Part shown: positions 324-44,404 of the stretch, one piece after another
How the letters are laid out: every line of letters starts with the position of its first letter
How positions within the stretch are numbered: the stretch's first letter is position 1
Notes under the pieces: generated by a model
Databases searched by the model: none
What the model was told of the DNA's origin: nothing
The model's input: only the letters and a program-made list of their open reading frames with translations
Assembly (NCBI RefSeq): GCF_024436055.1
Contig: NZ_JANFNH010000004.1
Location: 62,001 to 126,000 of the forward strand
Direction of reading: 5' to 3'
Source of the DNA: Streptantibioticus rubrisoli
GTDB lineage: Bacteria; Actinomycetota; Actinomycetes; Streptomycetales; Streptomycetaceae
DNA: 64,000 bases
Made by a program: the position numbers and the translations under genes

Positions 324-3300
324 ATGGCTGGCTTTACACACCTGCATGCGCTCTCCGGGTTTTCCATGCGGTACGGGGCCAGCCACCCGGAGCGGCTGGC
401 CGAGTGCGCCGCCGAGCGGGGGATGGACGCGCTGGCGTTGACCGATCGGGACACCGTCGCGGGGGCGGTGCGGTTCGCCGTGGCGTGCCGGAAGGTCGGG
501 GTGCGCCCGGTCTTCGGGGCCGGGCTCGCCGTGCCGGAGGCTCCGGAGCAGGCGGCCGGGAGCGGCGCGGTGCGGCGGCCCGCGCCGGTTCGGGGCGGGG
601 CCTTCATCGACGAGTCGGTGCCCCGCGCGATCTTCCTCGCCCGGGACGGTGCGGCCGGTTGGGCCGCGCTGTGCCGACTGGTCTCCGCCGCCCACCGCGC
701 CCCCGACCGCCCCCGGCTGACCTGGCAGGACCTGACCGGCGAAGGGCTGACCGTCCTGCTGGGCGCCGAGTCCGAGGTCGGCCGGGAACTGGCCGCCGGA
801 CGGCCCGACCGGGCCGCGCGGCTGCTCGCGCCCTGGCGGGAGGTGTACGGGGACGCGCTGCGCCTGGAGGCCGCGTACCACGGACGGCACGGCACCGGCC
901 CCGGCTCACTGCGGCTCGCCGCCCGTACCCTCGGCTTCGCCGCCGCACAGGGGGTGCGGCCGGTGCTGAGCAACGCCGTGCGGTACGCGGACCCCGGCCA
1001 GGGCGAGGTCGCCGACGTGCTGGACGCGGCGCGACTGCTGGTACCCATCGACACCCGCAGGCAGGAGTCGCTGGACAGCGGAGAGCGCTGGCTCAAGGAC
1101 ACCGCGTCCATGGTCAGGATCGCCGAGCGGATCGCCGAGGCCGCCGGATACCGGCGCGCCGTCGCGTACCGGCTGCTGGATGAGACGGCCCGCACCGCCG
1201 CGCTGTGCGCCGTCGACCCGGTGGACGACCTCGGGATGGGGCAGGTGCACCTCCCCGAGCCGGACCTGGTCGGCGCGGGCAGGCGCAGCGCCGACCGGGT
1301 GCTGCGATCCCGCTGTGCCGCCGCCATGGTGGTCAAGGGATACGACCGCAGCCGCGAGCACTGGGACCGGCTGGAACACGAGCTGGGCATCATCCAACGG
1401 CTGCGCTACGCCGGGTACTTCCTCACCGTCGCCCAGGTCGTGGACGACACACGGGCTCTCGGCATCCGGGTCGCGGCCCGTGGCTCGGGCGCGTCCTGTC
1501 TGGTCAACCACCTGCTGGGGATCGCCAATGCCGACCCGGTCGAACACGGTCTGCTCATGGAGCGGTTCCTGTCCGACCGCCGGGCCGCGCTGCCCGACAT
1601 CGACATCGATGTGGAGTCCGCCCGGCGCCTTGAGGTCTACCGGGCGATCTTCGATCGCTTCGGCGCCGACCGCGTGGCGACCGTCGCCATGTCCGAGACC
1701 TACCGGGTCCGGCACGCCGTGCGGGACGTGGGCGCCGCCCTCGGTATGGACCCGATGGAGACCGACCGGCTGGCGAAGTCCTTCCCGCACATCCGGGCCC
1801 GCGACGCCCGTGCCGCGCTCGCCGAACTGCCCGAGCTGCGCGGGATCGACGCGGACCGGTACGGGCGGATGTGGGAGCTGGTGGAGGCGCTGGACGGGCT
1901 GCCGCGCGGGGTCGCCATGCACCCGTGCGGAGTGCTGCTCTCCGACGCCGGGCTGCTGGACCGAACCCCGGTCATGCCGACCAGCGGCGAGGGCTTCCCG
2001 ATGTCCCAGTTCGACAAGGACGACGTGGAGGAGCTCGGGCTGCTCAAGCTCGATGTGCTCGGGGTGCGGATGCAGTCCGCGATGGCGCACGCGGTCAAGG
2101 AGGTGGAGCGCGCCTCGGGCGAGCGGATCGACCTGGACGCGGTGCCGCCCGGCGACCGCGCGACCTATCAACTGATCAGGTCCAGCGAGACGTTGGGCTG
2201 CTTCCAGATCGAGTCGCCGGGTCAGCGCGACCTGATCGGGCGGCTGCAACCCAGCACCTTCCACGACCTGGTGGTCGACATCTCGCTGTTCCGGCCGGGA
2301 CCGGTGGCCGCCGACATGGTGCGTCCCTTCATCGAGGCCAGGCACGGCCGCAGGCAGCCGCGCTATCCGCATCCCGACCTGCTGGAAGTGCTGAAGGAGA
2401 CCTATGGAGTCGTCGTCTTCCATGAACAGGTGATCGAGATCATCCGGATCATGACCGGCTGCGGGCGCGCCGAGGCCGACGAGAAGCGGCGCGCGCTGTC
2501 CGACCCCGACCTCCAGGGCAGGGTGCGGGCCTGGTTCACCGCGCGGGCGCGCGGCCGGAAGTACTCGCCCGAGGTCATCAGGCACACCTGGGAGATCCTG
2601 GAGGCCTTCGGCTCCTACGGCTTCTGCAAGGCGCACGCGGTCGCGTTCGCCGTACCGACCTACCAGTCCGCCTGGCTCAAGTCCCACTATCCGGCGGCCT
2701 TCTACGCCGGAGTGCTCACCCACGATCCCGGTATGTATCCCAAGCGGCTGCTGCTCGCCGACGCCCGGCGGCGCGGGGTGCCGGTGCTGCCGTTGGATGT
2801 GAACCGGTCCGGCACGGATTATCGGATCGAACTGGTGTCCGGTAAATGGGGGCTGCGGCTGGCACTGTCCGAGGTGCAGGGCATCAGCGAGCAGGAGGCC
2901 GCCCGGCTGGTCGCCGGGCAGCCGTACTCCTCGCTGTCGGACCTGTGGCAGCGCGCCCGCCCCAGCCGCCCGGTCGCCGAACGGCTGGTCAGGGTGGGCG
3001 CGTTGGACGCCTTCGGCCCGAACCGGCGCGACCTGCTGCTGCAGACCGCCGAGCTGCACCGCGGTGGCAAATCCGCCCGGGACGGCCAACTCCCGCTGCC
3101 CACCGGTGAGATGGTGTCCGGCCCGGCCCGCAGCGGCCTGCCCGACATGGACGACGGTGAGCGACTGGGCGCCGAACTCGGGGTGCTCGGCATGGACGCC
3201 TCCCGCCACCTGATGGACGACCACCGCGCGTTCCTGGGGGAGTTGGGGGTGACCCCGGCGAACCGGCTGGGCGTGGTTCGGGGCGGTGAGACCGTGCTGG

Positions 3301-3755
3301 TCGCCGGGGCGAAGGCGGCCACCCAGACCCCGCCGGTCCGCTCCGGGCGCCGTGTCATCTTCACCACCCTGGACGACGGCACCGGCCTGGTCGACCTCGC
3401 CTTCTTCGACGACAGCCACGCCGCCTGCGCGCACACCGTCTTCCACTCCTGGCTGCTGCTGGTGCGCGGGGTGGTGCAGCGGCGCGGCCCGCGCAGCCTC
3501 AGCGTGGTCGGCTCCGCCGCGTGGAACCTCGCGGAACTCGCCGAACTGCGCAGGGCGGGCGGGCTGTCGGCGGTCGCGGAGCGGCTGGCCGCGGTGGCGG
3601 CGGGGCCGCAGGAGGGCACGGACGGTGCCGACGGCCGCCGCCTCCACCTGCCCACCGGCTACCAGCTGCACCCGTGGGCCGACCTCCAGCCGCCGGGCGA
3701 GGGCGCCGCCACCGGCCGCAAGCTGTGGCACTCGAGTCCGGGGAGCGCGGGATGA
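324..3755 (+). CDS. dnaE2: Error-prone DNA polymerase III alpha subunit DnaE2 (ImuC)
   Basis: Replicative-type polymerase used for translesion synthesis and damage-induced mutagenesis. The 1143-residue product has an N-terminal PHP domain starting FTHLHALSGFSMRYG, then the C-family polymerase core. The catalytic acidic triad PDIDIDVES (D425, D427, D429) is intact, and fingers, HhH and C-terminal OB-fold regions follow. The length is typical of DnaE2 and slightly shorter than replicative DnaE1. The ATG at 324 is chosen because GGGAGGTG lies just upstream and the preceding in-frame codons overlap the SOS box. Its stop overlaps the next start (ATGA), so it is translationally coupled to the imuB-like gene. 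No imuA'-like gene is visible nearby. Confidence 0.95.
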   Translation: MAGFTHLHALSGFSMRYGASHPERLAECAAERGMDALALTDRDTVAGAVRFAVACRKVGVRPVFGAGLAVPEAPEQAAGSGAVRRPAPVRGGAFIDESVPRAIFLARDGAAGWAALCRLVSAAHRAPDRPRLTWQDLTGEGLTVLLGAESEVGRELAAGRPDRAARLLAPWREVYGDALRLEAAYHGRHGTGPGSLRLAARTLGFAAAQGVRPVLSNAVRYADPGQGEVADVLDAARLLVPIDTRRQESLDSGERWLKDTASMVRIAERIAEAAGYRRAVAYRLLDETARTAALCAVDPVDDLGMGQVHLPEPDLVGAGRRSADRVLRSRCAAAMVVKGYDRSREHWDRLEHELGIIQRLRYAGYFLTVAQVVDDTRALGIRVAARGSGASCLVNHLLGIANADPVEHGLLMERFLSDRRAALPDIDIDVESARRLEVYRAIFDRFGADRVATVAMSETYRVRHAVRDVGAALGMDPMETDRLAKSFPHIRARDARAALAELPELRGIDADRYGRMWELVEALDGLPRGVAMHPCGVLLSDAGLLDRTPVMPTSGEGFPMSQFDKDDVEELGLLKLDVLGVRMQSAMAHAVKEVERASGERIDLDAVPPGDRATYQLIRSSETLGCFQIESPGQRDLIGRLQPSTFHDLVVDISLFRPGPVAADMVRPFIEARHGRRQPRYPHPDLLEVLKETYGVVVFHEQVIEIIRIMTGCGRAEADEKRRALSDPDLQGRVRAWFTARARGRKYSPEVIRHTWEILEAFGSYGFCKAHAVAFAVPTYQSAWLKSHYPAAFYAGVLTHDPGMYPKRLLLADARRRGVPVLPLDVNRSGTDYRIELVSGKWGLRLALSEVQGISEQEAARLVAGQPYSSLSDLWQRARPSRPVAERLVRVGALDAFGPNRRDLLLQTAELHRGGKSARDGQLPLPTGEMVSGPARSGLPDMDDGERLGAELGVLGMDASRHLMDDHRAFLGELGVTPANRLGVVRGGETVLVAGAKAATQTPPVRSGRRVIFTTLDDGTGLVDLAFFDDSHAACAHTVFHSWLLLVRGVVQRRGPRSLSVVGSAAWNLAELAELRRAGGLSAVAERLAAVAAGPQEGTDGADGRRLHLPTGYQLHPWADLQPPGEGAATGRKLWHSSPGSAG

Positions 3756-4843
3756 CCAGGCGTCAGGTATACGATGTGGTGACCCGTTTCACCGAATCGC
3801 CCGGAACCGGCGCCGCGCGACGGCTCACCCTGGTGACCGCGGCGCGGGACGTACCGCATGTGCTGTACGTCCATCTGCACCCCGCCGAGGGCGCCGCCTT
3901 GACCGAGGAGTCGTACGGGGCACTGCTCGCCCTGCTCGGTGAGATCACCCCGGTGGTGGAGGCGCTGCCGCCCGATGCCGCGCTCCTCGACGTACGGGGC
4001 AGCCTGCGCTACTTCGGGCGCACCGCCGAGGAGTTGGCCGACCTGATCAGGGTGCGGGCGCTGGTCCGCTACGGCGTGGACTGCACCATCGGTGTCGCCG
4101 TCAACCCCGTGCTGGCCCGGATGGTCGCGTACGACGGTCCGCAGGGCGCGGTGCGCACGCTGTCCGCCGCGCCGGAGGCGATCGCCGCCTTCCTCGCCGG
4201 CAAGCCCGCCGCCGCGCTGCACGGCGTGGGGCCCGCCACCGCGCGGCTGCTCGGCGACTACGGGCTGGACAGCGTCGGCCGGATCGCCGCCGTACCGCTG
4301 GGCACCCTGCAACGGATCCTCGGCGCGAGCGCGGGGCGGCGGGTGTACGAGCGGGCCCGCGGCCTCGATCCGACACCGGTCACCCCGAACGCTCCGGCCC
4401 GCTCGATCGGCGGCGAACGGCGCTTCGACCGCGACGAGTTGGACCCGGTACGGCACCGCCGCGCACTGCTGTCGCTCACCGACGAACTGGGCGCGCGGCT
4501 ACGGGGCGCGGGCCAGGTCGCCCGCTCGCTGACCCTCACCGTCCGCTACGCCGACCGCTCGACCACCACCCGTACCCGCGCACTGCCCGAGCCGACCGGG
4601 CACACCGCGGCGCTCACCGACACCGCGTACCGGATGTACGCGGCGCTCGGGCTGCAACGCGCCCGGGTGCGGGCGGTGGCGCTGCGCGCCGAAGGGCTGA
4701 CGGACGCCGAACTCGCCGCCCACCAGCTCACCTTGGACCCCGGCGACGACAGGGCCCGCCGCATCGAGGAGGTCACCGACCGCGCCCGCGCCCGCTTCGG
4801 CGCGGGTGTGCTCGGCCCGGCGGCGGTGCTCGGGGTGGCGTGA
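3752..4843 (+). CDS. imuB: ImuB-like Y-family polymerase homologue, catalytically degenerate
   Basis: This 363-residue Y-family protein is coupled to dnaE2 by an ATGA overlap. The palm, HhH thumb (HGVGPATARLLGDYG, about residues 155-170) and a little-finger-like C-terminus are recognisable. The metal-binding positions are not those of an active polymerase. The DxD of motif I is replaced by VHLH (H41, H43), and the usual SxDE motif reads PPDAA, keeping D75 but carrying Ala for Glu. This fits ImuB, which acts as a scaffold linking DnaE2 to the sliding clamp rather than polymerising DNA. It is shorter than mycobacterial ImuB. A divergent DinB paralogue is the alternative name. Location in the SOS-box operon supports a mutasome role. 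Confidence 0.8.
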   Translation: MTRRQVYDVVTRFTESPGTGAARRLTLVTAARDVPHVLYVHLHPAEGAALTEESYGALLALLGEITPVVEALPPDAALLDVRGSLRYFGRTAEELADLIRVRALVRYGVDCTIGVAVNPVLARMVAYDGPQGAVRTLSAAPEAIAAFLAGKPAAALHGVGPATARLLGDYGLDSVGRIAAVPLGTLQRILGASAGRRVYERARGLDPTPVTPNAPARSIGGERRFDRDELDPVRHRRALLSLTDELGARLRGAGQVARSLTLTVRYADRSTTTRTRALPEPTGHTAALTDTAYRMYAALGLQRARVRAVALRAEGLTDAELAAHQLTLDPGDDRARRIEEVTDRARARFGAGVLGPAAVLGVA

Positions 4844-7516: not shown

Positions 7517-9181
7517 ATGACCGCACTGCACCTGTTCAAGACCGTCCTCGACCCCGGGACCTGGCACAGCTGGGACGAGCCGGTGGCGGTCCCCGCCTCC
7601 GCTGACCCGGACTACCGGGCGGACCTGGAGCGGGCCCGGCAGCGCAGCGGTCTTGACGAGTCGGTGGTGACCGGCGAAGGGCGCGTCAAGGGGCGCCGGG
7701 TCGCCCTGATGGCCTGCGAGTTCGGTTTCCTCGGCGGCTCGATCGGGGTCGCGGCGGGGGAGCGGCTGGTCAGGGCGGTGGAACGGGCCACCCGCGAGGG
7801 GCTGCCGCTGCTCGCCTCCCCCGCCTCCGGTGGGACCCGCATGCAGGAGGGGACCATCGCCTTCCTCCAGATGGTCAAGGTGGCCGCCGCGGTCGCCGAC
7901 CACAAGGCCGCGGGCCTGCCCTACCTCGTCTACCTGCGGCATCCGACGACCGGGGGAGTGCTGGCCTCCTGGGGGTCACTCGGCCATGTCACCGCGGCCG
8001 AGCCCGGTGCGCTCATCGGCTTCCTCGGCCCCCGGGTCCATCAGGCGCTCTACGGGGAGGAGTTCCCCCACGGCGTCCAGGTCGCCGAGAACCTGCTCGC
8101 ACACGGCTTGCTGGACGCGGTCCTTCCGGCCGAGCAACTCGCGGGAGTGGCAGCACGGGCGCTGGACGTGCTGTGCGGGGGAGTCGAGACCGGCGGGGGT
8201 GGTGCGCACCGGCGTGCGGAGGAAGCGGGGGTGTCTCAGGCGGGAGTCAAGCAGGTCGCGCGAAGTCCGCTGCGGTTCGGTAGCGCCCTGAAGGGGCGCG
8301 GGGAACTGCGCGACCAGCCACAATGGCGCGGCAGGCGAACGACGGCACATCGCCGCACTCCCAGCGGAGCGCCTGGCGTAGAACCGGGGGCGACGCAGTC
8401 CCCCCTGCCCTCCGTGCCGCCCACCGCCGAATCGATCCGTCGCTCCCGGCGCCCCGAACGCCCTGATCTGCGCGCCCTGTTGCGCACCGCCGGGCGCGCC
8501 GTCACCCCGCTCAGCGGCACCGGCGCGGGGGAGCGCGACCCCGGGCTGCTGCTGGCGCTGGCCCGGTTCGGCTCGGCGCGCTGCGTGGTGCTCGGCCATG
8601 ACCGACACGGCCCGGACGGGCCGCGGTTGGGCCCCGCGGGCCTGCGCGAGGCGCGGCGCGGAATGCGGATCGCCGCCGAGTTGCGTCTTCCGCTGCTCAC
8701 CGTCATAGACACCGCGGGTGCCGCGCTCTCCCAGGAGGCGGAGGAGGGCGGCCTCGCCGGAGAGATCGCCCGCTGCCTCGCCGACCTGGTGACCCTCCCG
8801 GCGCCCACTTTGTGCCTGCTGCTCGGACAGGGCGCGGGCGGCGGCGCGCTCGCCCTGCTGCCCGCCGACCGGGTGCTGGCGGCCAGGCACGCCTGGCTCT
8901 CCCCGCTCCCGCCGGAGGGCGCCTCGGCGATCCTGTACCGCACGACCGAGCGCGCGTACGAGGTGGCCGACCGGCAGGGCGTCCGCTCCGCCGACCTTCG
9001 GTCGCACCGCATCGTGGACCGGATCGTCGAGGAGACCCCCGACGCCGCCGACGCCCCCGAACCGTTCCTCGCCGAGCTCGGCCGCGTTCTCGACGCCGAG
9101 CTCAGCGCCCTGCGCGCGATGGACGCCGCCGCCCGGCTGGCCGCCCGCCGGGCCCGCTACCGAAGCCTGGGGCTGGGGTGA
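7517..9181 (+). CDS. Fused carboxyltransferase (AccD-AccA type) of an acyl-CoA carboxylase
   Basis: This 554-residue protein carries two crotonase-fold carboxyltransferase halves. The N-terminal half (about 45-225) has VALMACEFGFLGGSIG, ASPASGGTRMQEG and WGSLGHVTAAEPGALIGFLG, all AccD-like. The C-terminal half (about 305-540) has RIAAELRLPLLTVIDTAGA and LGQGAGGGALALL, AccA-like. It should transfer carboxyl groups from carboxybiotin to an acyl-CoA. No biotin carboxylase or BCCP gene is nearby, and no N-terminal zinc finger is present. The linker residues 250-285 are encoded exactly by a 108-bp copy of an otherwise intergenic repeat. The start at 7517 has AGGGTG upstream. Confidence 0.85.
   Translation: MTALHLFKTVLDPGTWHSWDEPVAVPASADPDYRADLERARQRSGLDESVVTGEGRVKGRRVALMACEFGFLGGSIGVAAGERLVRAVERATREGLPLLASPASGGTRMQEGTIAFLQMVKVAAAVADHKAAGLPYLVYLRHPTTGGVLASWGSLGHVTAAEPGALIGFLGPRVHQALYGEEFPHGVQVAENLLAHGLLDAVLPAEQLAGVAARALDVLCGGVETGGGGAHRRAEEAGVSQAGVKQVARSPLRFGSALKGRGELRDQPQWRGRRTTAHRRTPSGAPGVEPGATQSPLPSVPPTAESIRRSRRPERPDLRALLRTAGRAVTPLSGTGAGERDPGLLLALARFGSARCVVLGHDRHGPDGPRLGPAGLREARRGMRIAAELRLPLLTVIDTAGAALSQEAEEGGLAGEIARCLADLVTLPAPTLCLLLGQGAGGGALALLPADRVLAARHAWLSPLPPEGASAILYRTTERAYEVADRQGVRSADLRSHRIVDRIVEETPDAADAPEPFLAELGRVLDAELSALRAMDAAARLAARRARYRSLGLG
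8264..8371 (+). repeat. Dispersed Streptomyces repeat, copy A, inside a coding sequence
   Basis: This 108-bp stretch begins AGTCCGCTGCGGTTCGG and ends CCCAGCGGAGCG. It closely matches the intergenic copy at 44287-44395 and more loosely the copy at 33411-33507. It contains a hairpin-forming GCGCCC-N-GGGGCGC segment. Its length is a multiple of three, it starts on a codon boundary of the carboxyltransferase gene and contains no in-frame stop, so it is translated as 36 extra linker residues. Confidence 0.85.
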
Positions 9182-33410: not shown

Positions 33411-33507
33411 CGCTGGCGGCGCCCCGAAAGGGCGCGCAGGACTGCGCGGTCGGCCACAATGGCGCCGCAGCCGATCGACGGAATGTCGCCGTACCCCCGG
33501 CGGAGCG
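33411..33507 (+). repeat. Dispersed Streptomyces repeat, copy B (diverged)
   Basis: This 97-bp segment fills the gap between the convergent ADH and tetR genes. It shares the ordered blocks GCGCCCCGAAAGGGCGC, ACTGCGCGGTCGGCCACAATG and CGGCGGAGCG with copies A and C, but is shorter and diverged. The GCGCCC/GGGCGC hairpin may act as a terminator here. Confidence 0.65.
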
Positions 33508-33508
33508 C

Positions 33509-34141
33509 TCAGCGGAGCCGCTCGTACTGCAGGGCCAGGCCGTCCACGAGGGCGCGCAGGCCCGCCTCGAACGCGCCCTCGTCCACGCGGCGTTGGTGCT
33601 CCGGAAGCAGATGGGCCTGGCCGAGGTGCGGATAGTCGGCCGGGTCGTAGGCGGTCGGATCGTCCACGAACCCCCGGGCGAAGGAGCCGAGCGCCGATCC
33701 GGCGACGAAGTACCGCATCATCGCGCCGATCCGGGTGGCGTGCGCGGGCGGCCAGCCCGCGGCCACCATGCCGCCGAACACCGCGTCGGCCAGCCGCAGT
33801 CCGGCCGGTCGGCGGCCGGGCCCCTGGGCCAGGAACGGCACGATGTGCGGATGCGCGGCCAGCGCCGCGCGGTACGACCGCGCCCAGCGCACGAGAGCGT
33901 CCGGCCAGGGCGTGCCGTCGTCGAACATCGACAGGTCCACCTGGGCGACGACGGTGTCCGCGACCGCGTCCAGGATCTCGTCCTTGGTGCGGAAGTGGTT
34001 GTACAACGACGGCCCGCTGACGCCGAGTTCGGCGGCGAGCCGCCGGGTGGAGACCGTCTGCAGCCCTTCCGCGTCCACCAGCGCCAGCGCCGTGGCGACG
34101 ATGCGCTCTCGGCTGAGCAGGGGCTTGCGGGGGCGTGCCAT
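33509..34141 (-). CDS. TetR-family regulator of the ALDH/ADH/ACAD genes
   Basis: A 210-residue TetR protein. The HTH region (about 10-55) contains SRERIVATALALVDAEGLQTVSTRR and SGPSLYNHFRTKDEIL, given in parts. The C-terminal domain resembles the TetR_C_1 subgroup. The start is ATG 34141 (MARPRKPLLS). It is divergent from the acyl-CoA dehydrogenase gene, and the AACTAGC-type palindrome at 34170-34186 lies between. The same motif upstream of the aldehyde dehydrogenase suggests that this protein controls both units. Confidence 0.88.
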   Translation of the reverse strand: MARPRKPLLSRERIVATALALVDAEGLQTVSTRRLAAELGVSGPSLYNHFRTKDEILDAVADTVVAQVDLSMFDDGTPWPDALVRWARSYRAALAAHPHIVPFLAQGPGRRPAGLRLADAVFGGMVAAGWPPAHATRIGAMMRYFVAGSALGSFARGFVDDPTAYDPADYPHLGQAHLLPEHQRRVDEGAFEAGLRALVDGLALQYERLR

Positions 34142-42612: not shown

Positions 42613-44273
42613 GGTACGCCGACAAACCCTGGCTCCAGCACCTCAGCCCCGAACACCTCGCACCGGTCGATCCGCCGCCCACCATGCTGCACGCGTTCCG
42701 CGCCTCGGCCCGCCGCGTCCCCGACCGCACCGCACTCGCCTACTTCGACGGACGAGTGAGCTACGCCGAGGCCGACGCGCTCTCCGACGGCATCGCCAAC
42801 CACCTTCTGGCACACGGCTTCCGGCCCGGCGACCGCACCGCGATCGTGCTGCAGAACACCCCGCAGTTCGTCCTCGCGCTGCTCGGCACCTGGAAGGCGG
42901 GCGGCACCGCGGTGCCGGTCAGCCCGATGTACAAGGGCCGGGAGCTCGAACACGTGCTGCGCGACGCCCAGGTGACGGCCGTCGTCTGCCACGAGCGCGG
43001 CTGGACCTCGTACATCCGCCAGACCGTCGCCGACTCACCGGTCAGCATCGCGCTCACCACCAGCGAGTCGGACCTGCAAAGCCGCGACGACCACCGGGTG
43101 CTGCCGCCCGACGCCCGCACCCGCCCCGAGGACTGCGACGACCTGCTGGCCGCCGCCCGCGCTGCGGCGGGCGCGCCGGTGCCCGATCCGGGGCTCGGCC
43201 CCGACGACGCCGCGCTGCTCACCTACACCTCCGGTACCACCGGCATGCCCAAGGGCGCGCTCAACACCCACGGCAACATGGCCTACAACGCACAACGCCA
43301 GTGCCAGGTCCTCCAGTTGCCCGACGGCGCGACCGTCTTCGCGCTGGCGCCGCTGTTCCACATCAGTGGAATGGTCTCGCAACTCGCCGCCGCCATCACC
43401 GGCGGTTCCACCCTGGCGATGGCGTACCGCTTCGAGGCGGGTGCGGTGCTGGACGCCATCCGCGAGCACCGGCCCGGGTACATGGTGGGCCCGTCCACCG
43501 CCTACATCGCGCTGATGGCCAGGCCCGACGCCAGCGCCGACGACTTCGCCTCCTTCAAGTGGCTCAGCTCCGGCGGCGCACCGCTGCCGCCCGCCGTGGT
43601 CGAGGAGTTCCAGCGGCGGTTCGGCCACTACCTGCGCAACGGCTACGGGCTCACCGAGTGCACCGGTGCCTGCGCCAGCGTGCCGCCCGGCAGGCAGGCC
43701 CCGGTCGACCCGGTCTCCGGGACGCTGGCGGTGGGTGTGCCCGGACCTGACACCGTGATCCGGATCGTCGACGAGAGCGGCGCCGACGTGCCGTTCGGCG
43801 AGCACGGTGAGATCGCGGTGCGCGGCCCCATGGTGGTGCCCGGCTACTGGCGGCGGCCCGAGGAGTCGGCCGCCACGCTTCCGGAGGGTGAACTGCGCAC
43901 CGGCGACATCGGGTTCATGGACGAGACGGGCTGGCTCTATGTGGTCGACCGCAAGAAGGACATGATCAGCGCCTCCGGTTTCAAGGTGTGGCCACGCGAG
44001 GTCGAGGACGTGCTGTACACCCACCCCGCCGTACGGGAGGCGGCGGTCGTCGGCGTACCCCACCCCTACCGTGGCGAGACGGTCAAGGCGTACGTCAGCC
44101 TCAGACCCGGTACCTCGGTGGACTCCCGCGCGCTGATGGCGTACTGCAGGGAGCGGCTCGCGGCGTACAAGTACCCGCGCGAGGTGGAGTTCCTCGCCGA
44201 ACTGCCCAAGAACACCAGCGGAAAGATCCTCCGCCGCGAGCTGCGCGGGCTGCCGGGGCAACGAACCGGCTAA
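42609..44273 (+). CDS. Acyl-CoA synthetase (AMP-forming)
   Basis: A 554-residue ANL-superfamily ligase that activates a carboxylic acid to its CoA thioester. Core motifs are YTSGTTGMPKGAL (about 205-217), GYGLTECTGA, TGDIGFMDETGWLYVVDRKKD (given as family region) and the C-terminal PKNTSGKILRREL with the catalytic Lys. The GTG start overlaps the SDR stop, so the two are coupled and share the TACCGAC operator. Chain length cannot be read from the sequence. An LvaE-like short 4-keto acid ligase and a medium-chain ligase are both possible. Confidence 0.93.
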   Translation: MRYADKPWLQHLSPEHLAPVDPPPTMLHAFRASARRVPDRTALAYFDGRVSYAEADALSDGIANHLLAHGFRPGDRTAIVLQNTPQFVLALLGTWKAGGTAVPVSPMYKGRELEHVLRDAQVTAVVCHERGWTSYIRQTVADSPVSIALTTSESDLQSRDDHRVLPPDARTRPEDCDDLLAAARAAAGAPVPDPGLGPDDAALLTYTSGTTGMPKGALNTHGNMAYNAQRQCQVLQLPDGATVFALAPLFHISGMVSQLAAAITGGSTLAMAYRFEAGAVLDAIREHRPGYMVGPSTAYIALMARPDASADDFASFKWLSSGGAPLPPAVVEEFQRRFGHYLRNGYGLTECTGACASVPPGRQAPVDPVSGTLAVGVPGPDTVIRIVDESGADVPFGEHGEIAVRGPMVVPGYWRRPEESAATLPEGELRTGDIGFMDETGWLYVVDRKKDMISASGFKVWPREVEDVLYTHPAVREAAVVGVPHPYRGETVKAYVSLRPGTSVDSRALMAYCRERLAAYKYPREVEFLAELPKNTSGKILRRELRGLPGQRTG

Positions 44274-44286
44274 GCAGATCGGGCCG

Positions 44287-44395
44287 AGTCCGCTGCGGTC
44301 CGGCAGCGCCCTTGAAGGGGCGCGGGGAACCGCGCGACCAGCCACCATCGTGCCGCGCACGATCGATGGCACATCGCGGCACTCCCAGCGGAGCG
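44287..44395 (+). repeat. Dispersed Streptomyces repeat, copy C (intergenic)
   Basis: This 109-bp element lies between the ligase gene and tetR. It starts AGTCCGCTGCGGTCCGG, ends CCCAGCGGAGCG and is nearly identical to copy A in its first 60 bases. GCGCCC and GGGGCGC flank TTGAA and can form a hairpin. This is the normal intergenic habitat of the repeat. Confidence 0.8.
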
Positions 44396-44404
44396 TTCAG
44401 CGAC

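Follow-up and report, generated by a model that had tools for sequence, protein, structure and literature searches.

A dispersed intergenic repeat has probably become protein-coding by insertion into the interdomain linker of a carboxyltransferase gene in Streptantibioticus rubrisoli

A copy of an amplified, noncoding repeat family lies in frame within a fused carboxyltransferase gene of Streptantibioticus rubrisoli, a soil actinobacterium whose genus is related to Streptomyces, and has very probably arrived there by recent insertion. The gene was studied in a window of 64,000 nucleotides (the whole stretch analyzed, on contig C49) from a draft assembly of 7.26 Mb in 103 contigs. Our strongly favored reading is that this copy, here called copy A, derives from a ~130-bp nonautonomous REP- or MITE-like element that amplified in the host species and landed in the preexisting, disordered, and length-variable linker of an already fused gene. 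The original prediction had recognized an in-frame captured repeat as part of the interdomain linker, which our analysis supports, and had offered two histories, the fusion of formerly separate genes with retention of an intergenic repeat or a later insertion. Comparison with the congener G001, whose site is near-empty and whose flanking sequences align with ours on both sides around a single ~135-bp gap, favors the second.

The host gene occupies positions 7517–9181 of the plus strand and encodes 554 amino acids, an assignment that draws on Pfam matches, fused orthologues, and dN/dS. An AccD-like (Carboxyl_trans, PF01039) domain matches residues 39–183 (7631–8065) and is followed in the same protein by an AccA-like (ACCA, PF03255) domain at residues 307–552 (8435–9172), the arrangement of fused beta/alpha acetyl-CoA carboxylase-type proteins. 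The NCBIfam accD and accA equivalog models also match, with scores below their cut-offs, and we therefore treat the product as a putative carboxyltransferase of AccD/AccA type and assign it no substrate. Between the domains lies a linker (residues 223–300; 8183–8416) for which tblastn comparisons show hypervariable length among orthologues and AlphaFold2 predicts disorder, with pLDDT below 50 at residues 223–296 and well-modeled domains on both sides. Neither carboxyltransferase domain is disrupted, and dN/dS relative to congeners of 0.09–0.16 in both gene halves indicates purifying selection between species; most of this signal is older than the insertion of copy A.

Copy A spans positions 8247–8377 of the plus strand, comprising a 5′ extension (~8247–8281), a core (8282–8371), and a 3′ tip (8372–8377), as delimited by alignment to other copies and by its absence from G001. 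It was originally described as the 108 bp from 8264 to 8371, starting on a codon boundary and inserting 36 residues at positions 250–285 between the AccD-like and AccA-like halves. Position 8264 is indeed the first base of codon 250, the interval encodes SPLRFGSALKGRGELRDQPQWRGRRTTAHRRTPSGA, and it falls between the two Pfam matches. The reading frame is kept, but the limits of that interval were a choice: similarity to other copies extends past them by ~17 bp on the 5′ side and 6 bp on the 3′ side, so that a length of exactly 108 bp carries no weight. Likewise, copy A does lack stop codons, but this is unremarkable since the same phase is open in 23/34 full-length short-type copies, and thus no special coding adaptation of the repeat is needed. 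The boundaries given here are approximate because the linker evolves quickly and contains short internal repeats, and placement of the gap in the affine-gap pairwise alignment with G001 is ambiguous because GGAATCGGGGGCG-like motifs occur on both sides. The predicted full-length protein includes VKQVARSPLRFGSALKGRGELRDQPQWRGRRTTAHRR, a stretch of peptide derived from copy A.

Fusion of the two domains is widespread among relatives, and the repeat is confined to a single orthologue. A tblastn search with both gene halves covered 110 orthologue loci, the window's own included, from Streptomycetaceae to Arthrobacter, Brevibacterium, Dietzia, and Nocardia; some genomes are present twice, and the loci do not represent as many independent species. 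A single fused frame is found at 108 of the 109 classifiable loci, with one further locus partial, and element HMMs matched inside the gene in no orthologue other than the window's own. These data bear on the proposal that two adjacent genes with a repeat between them fused and that the intergenic repeat became the linker. Such a history would suit an element that is normally intergenic and a copy that sits at a domain junction, and we nevertheless consider it highly improbable: loci in several actinobacterial families are fused without the repeat, and the G001 orthologue is fused through a linker of 33 residues, so that the proposal would require the gene to have split and fused again in the host lineage. 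The AccD- and AccA-like domains had already fused when the element arrived, the fusion being much the older event. In one orthologue only (L044, in G026) do the two halves occupy different frames; its 62-nt linker also lacks the repeat, and the frame difference is due to a sequencing error or to a later split of the fused gene. At another locus (L083, Actinacidiphila oryziradicis, 2501–3974), fixed-frame translation loses similarity early in the alignment, which suggests a frameshift in the record.

Linker length differs greatly among these orthologues, from 15 to 187 amino acids (median 23), relative to 78 in the window. Orthologues lacking the repeat therefore do not share a conserved linker of the window's length, a pattern that would have implied convergence or misalignment. 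Long linkers have also arisen by other means: those of G002 (L032, 102 amino acids) and G018 (L033, 96 amino acids) owe their added length to low-complexity Gly/Ala/Asp-rich repeats unrelated to the element. The longest, of ~187 amino acids, is found in Streptomyces albus NRRL F-4971 (L116).

The repeat to which copy A belongs is a dispersed family that is abundant in the host genome and scarce in its congeners. That the similarity exceeds chance, as originally proposed, is borne out by 42 BLAST matches of copy A in its own genome, the best off-site match having 93% identity (E = 1.6e-32). The element consists of a 5′ extension beginning with a (C)TRAGCAGG-like tip, a core running from AGCGCCCTGAAGGGGCGCGGGGAACTGCGCGACCAGCC to CCCAGCGGAGCGC, and a 3′ tip, YYAGC; as read from alignments, inverted similarity between the two tips is limited to the brief motif (C)TRAGC. 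The 5′ extension is missing from some copies, and another subtype has ~25 additional bases in the core. A covariance model scored 150 candidates in the host genome and matched at 147 places, compared with three in each of the congeners G001 and G002, and combining covariance-model matches with fetched regions gave a census of 134 distinct copies. Contiguous sequence totaling 1.18 Mb holds 25 copies, in keeping with ~150 per genome. In size (~110–155 bp), noncoding character, and copy number, the family resembles MITEs. The model matched in 48/150 sampled genomes (the host and both congeners included), more weakly in many other Streptomycetaceae, and this breadth together with the excess of ~134–147 copies over three suggests that an old, family-wide element was amplified in the host species. 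Judged on this one gene, there is a slight chance that the element was lost from relatives instead of gained in the host. Streptomyces morookaense (L127) has divergent copies at 1763–1910 and 3992–4058, one closely upstream and one closely downstream of the orthologous gene, with none inside it. Rfam 15 returned no match at gathering score and nothing convincing at a relaxed E-value, and a conserved RNA fold was dropped as a candidate feature after two-sided changes were found in only 1/23 consensus pairs.

Two further copies, B and C, lie in the window. Copy B (33414–33512, plus strand) has a 3′ tip covering the stop codon of a minus-strand gene beginning (window coordinates) at 33509. Copy C (44274–44401, plus strand) directly follows the TAA (44271–44273) of the upstream gene and lies outside genes, as first described, but is not near-identical to copy A (86% identity over 94 bp). 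The presence of ~130 dispersed copies in a draft of 103 contigs raises the concern that assembly misplaced a repeat into the gene. We give this explanation very little credence, because this short element is bordered on either side by sequence collinear with the congener and the sequence of copy A is unique in the genome.

Several features suggest that copy A is young. Among 31 full-length short-type copies it is the closest to the consensus (6.5% divergence in a leave-one-out comparison, in which the median is 12%). Its codons also retain the low GC3 of the element, at 0.73 relative to 0.91–0.93 in the flanking domains; together, low divergence and low GC3 suggest recent insertion. The mRNA would be read through the element, adding a basic peptide of ~42–44 residues with, in our interpretation, no specific function. 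Recruitment of the peptide as a basic docking or nucleic acid-binding segment maintained by selection would be consistent with its strong basic character (11 K/R and 2 D/E over 44 residues) and with the preserved frame, but is quite unlikely given that the insert occurs in one genome only, remains close to the repeat consensus, has unadapted codons, and is surrounded by a linker that differs freely from one relative to the next. It is also unlikely that the insertion impaired the enzyme and that the gene is now decaying ahead of its removal. Since the insertion is young, dN/dS between species says little about the time since it occurred, yet an open frame runs across the two halves with no other lesion seen, and an in-frame, stop-free state is what a tolerated insertion would be expected to show. 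Under the favored account of insertion into a tolerant linker, copy A would have survived because its net length keeps the frame, its phase can be read, and the linker accommodates extra residues.

Copies of the repeat are closely tied to gene ends, and those within genes are exceedingly rare. A simple codon-usage gene caller allowed 133 of the 134 copies to be classified. An opposite-strand gene ends at the 3′ tip of the element in 78 of these, and in 67/133 the stop codon of that gene begins exactly after GGAGCGC, relative to 0.5% expected if copies were scattered at random over gaps of 110 bp or more. For another 34 copies, a same-strand gene ends at or near the 5′ end. The repeat occurs between convergent and tandem genes alike. 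Stop codons at the 3′ tip are TGA in 43 cases, TAG in 28, and TAA in seven, relative to a background of 807, 227, and 72, respectively (P = 0.0014, chi-square test), with TAG over-represented. No copy except A lies entirely within a confidently called gene, and the gene that holds copy A is conserved, with orthologues that lack the insert; a second candidate (L175) was discounted because its ORF scored weakly. That a single copy is intragenic although ~84% of the sequence is coding indicates strong avoidance or purging of genes, and insertions into genes would mostly have been purged. One possibility, which we advance tentatively and with some doubt, is that an undescribed Streptomycetaceae repeat inserts specifically at stop codons, perhaps at CTAG-like sites, with tips that retain a stop for either gene, that it underwent a burst of ~50-fold in one species, and that copy A is a rare off-target insertion turned into protein.

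Comparison of filled sites with their counterparts in G001 is consistent with movement of the element by transposition or a similar process. The site of copy C is empty in G001, with 4 bp between the flanks, and the flanks abut at the site of copy 23386. At the site of copy 315210 they are separated by 11 bp, with extra sequence to the left of the element in the host genome, and at that of copy 378152 by 19 bp, with a more complex left side. G001 has unrelated sequence rather than an empty site at the position of copy B. The genes adjoining copies B, C, and 315210 end at the same codon in both genomes, with TAG in G001 and TAA or TGA in the host. Comparisons of filled and empty sites for six copies revealed no consistent target-site duplication. 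No match to the Y1 transposase (PF01797) was found in the host genome in a search that detected its controls, and mobilization of the RAYT/IS200 type was rejected on this ground. Three DDE_3 loci are present in the host genome and make an IS630/mariner-like mechanism generating TA duplications conceivable, but such duplications were not consistently seen between filled and empty sites.

Insertion of short repeats in frame into bacterial proteins has already been published for REP, RPE, and MITE elements, and copy A is a fresh example. The palindromic elements of Rickettsia (RPEs; Ogata et al. 2000, 2002, as reviewed in PMC10969869) are dispersed repeats of ~100–150 bp, many of them in frame in unrelated protein genes whose products they lengthen by a few dozen residues, with nearly half of the copies within genes. 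The repeat described here is alike in size, dispersal, and in-frame peptide, and differs in having 1/133 copies in a gene and a high-GC actinobacterial host. GTAG- and CGTC-tagged REPs lie next to gene 3′ ends, the flanking gene often takes its stop codon from their tips, and some are wholly inside ORFs, where they encode 20–82 residues (PMC3733652). Our family shares the 3′-end location, the tips on stop codons, and the occasional intragenic copy, whereas its elements measure ~130–155 bp rather than 20–40 bp (PMC3733652) and its host genome lacks a RAYT-type Y1 transposase. Enterobacterial RU/ERIC elements are noncoding mobile units of 103–168 bp that are mostly intergenic and sometimes fused with host frames (PMC2759123). 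The same size, noncoding nature, mostly intergenic location, and occasional fusion characterize our family, which occurs in an unrelated host group and is provisionally likened to these and other bacterial MITEs. Searches for repeat-sequence strings and for a named Streptomyces repeat, in literature that includes few subscription journals, found no publication on the family, and neither it nor its host group seems to have been described there. With an empty site, a filled site, and ~130 family copies, copy A offers a near single-step case in which noncoding repeat DNA of a high-GC actinobacterium would have come to encode protein, and it adds to a phenomenon documented chiefly in Rickettsia and proteobacteria. 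A family tied to stop codons could also be used to study how elements choose their sites and why insertions into genes are nearly absent.

A different gene in the host genome also appears to have acquired coding sequence from the repeat. An extra ribosomal protein S18 gene (L378, G000:C16:566032–566247), in a genome with two further S18 genes, has a predicted C terminus of DQPRRSCRRSMT followed by a stop, which comes from a 5′-truncated copy; here the repeat would have been captured as coding sequence a second time, at a C terminus.
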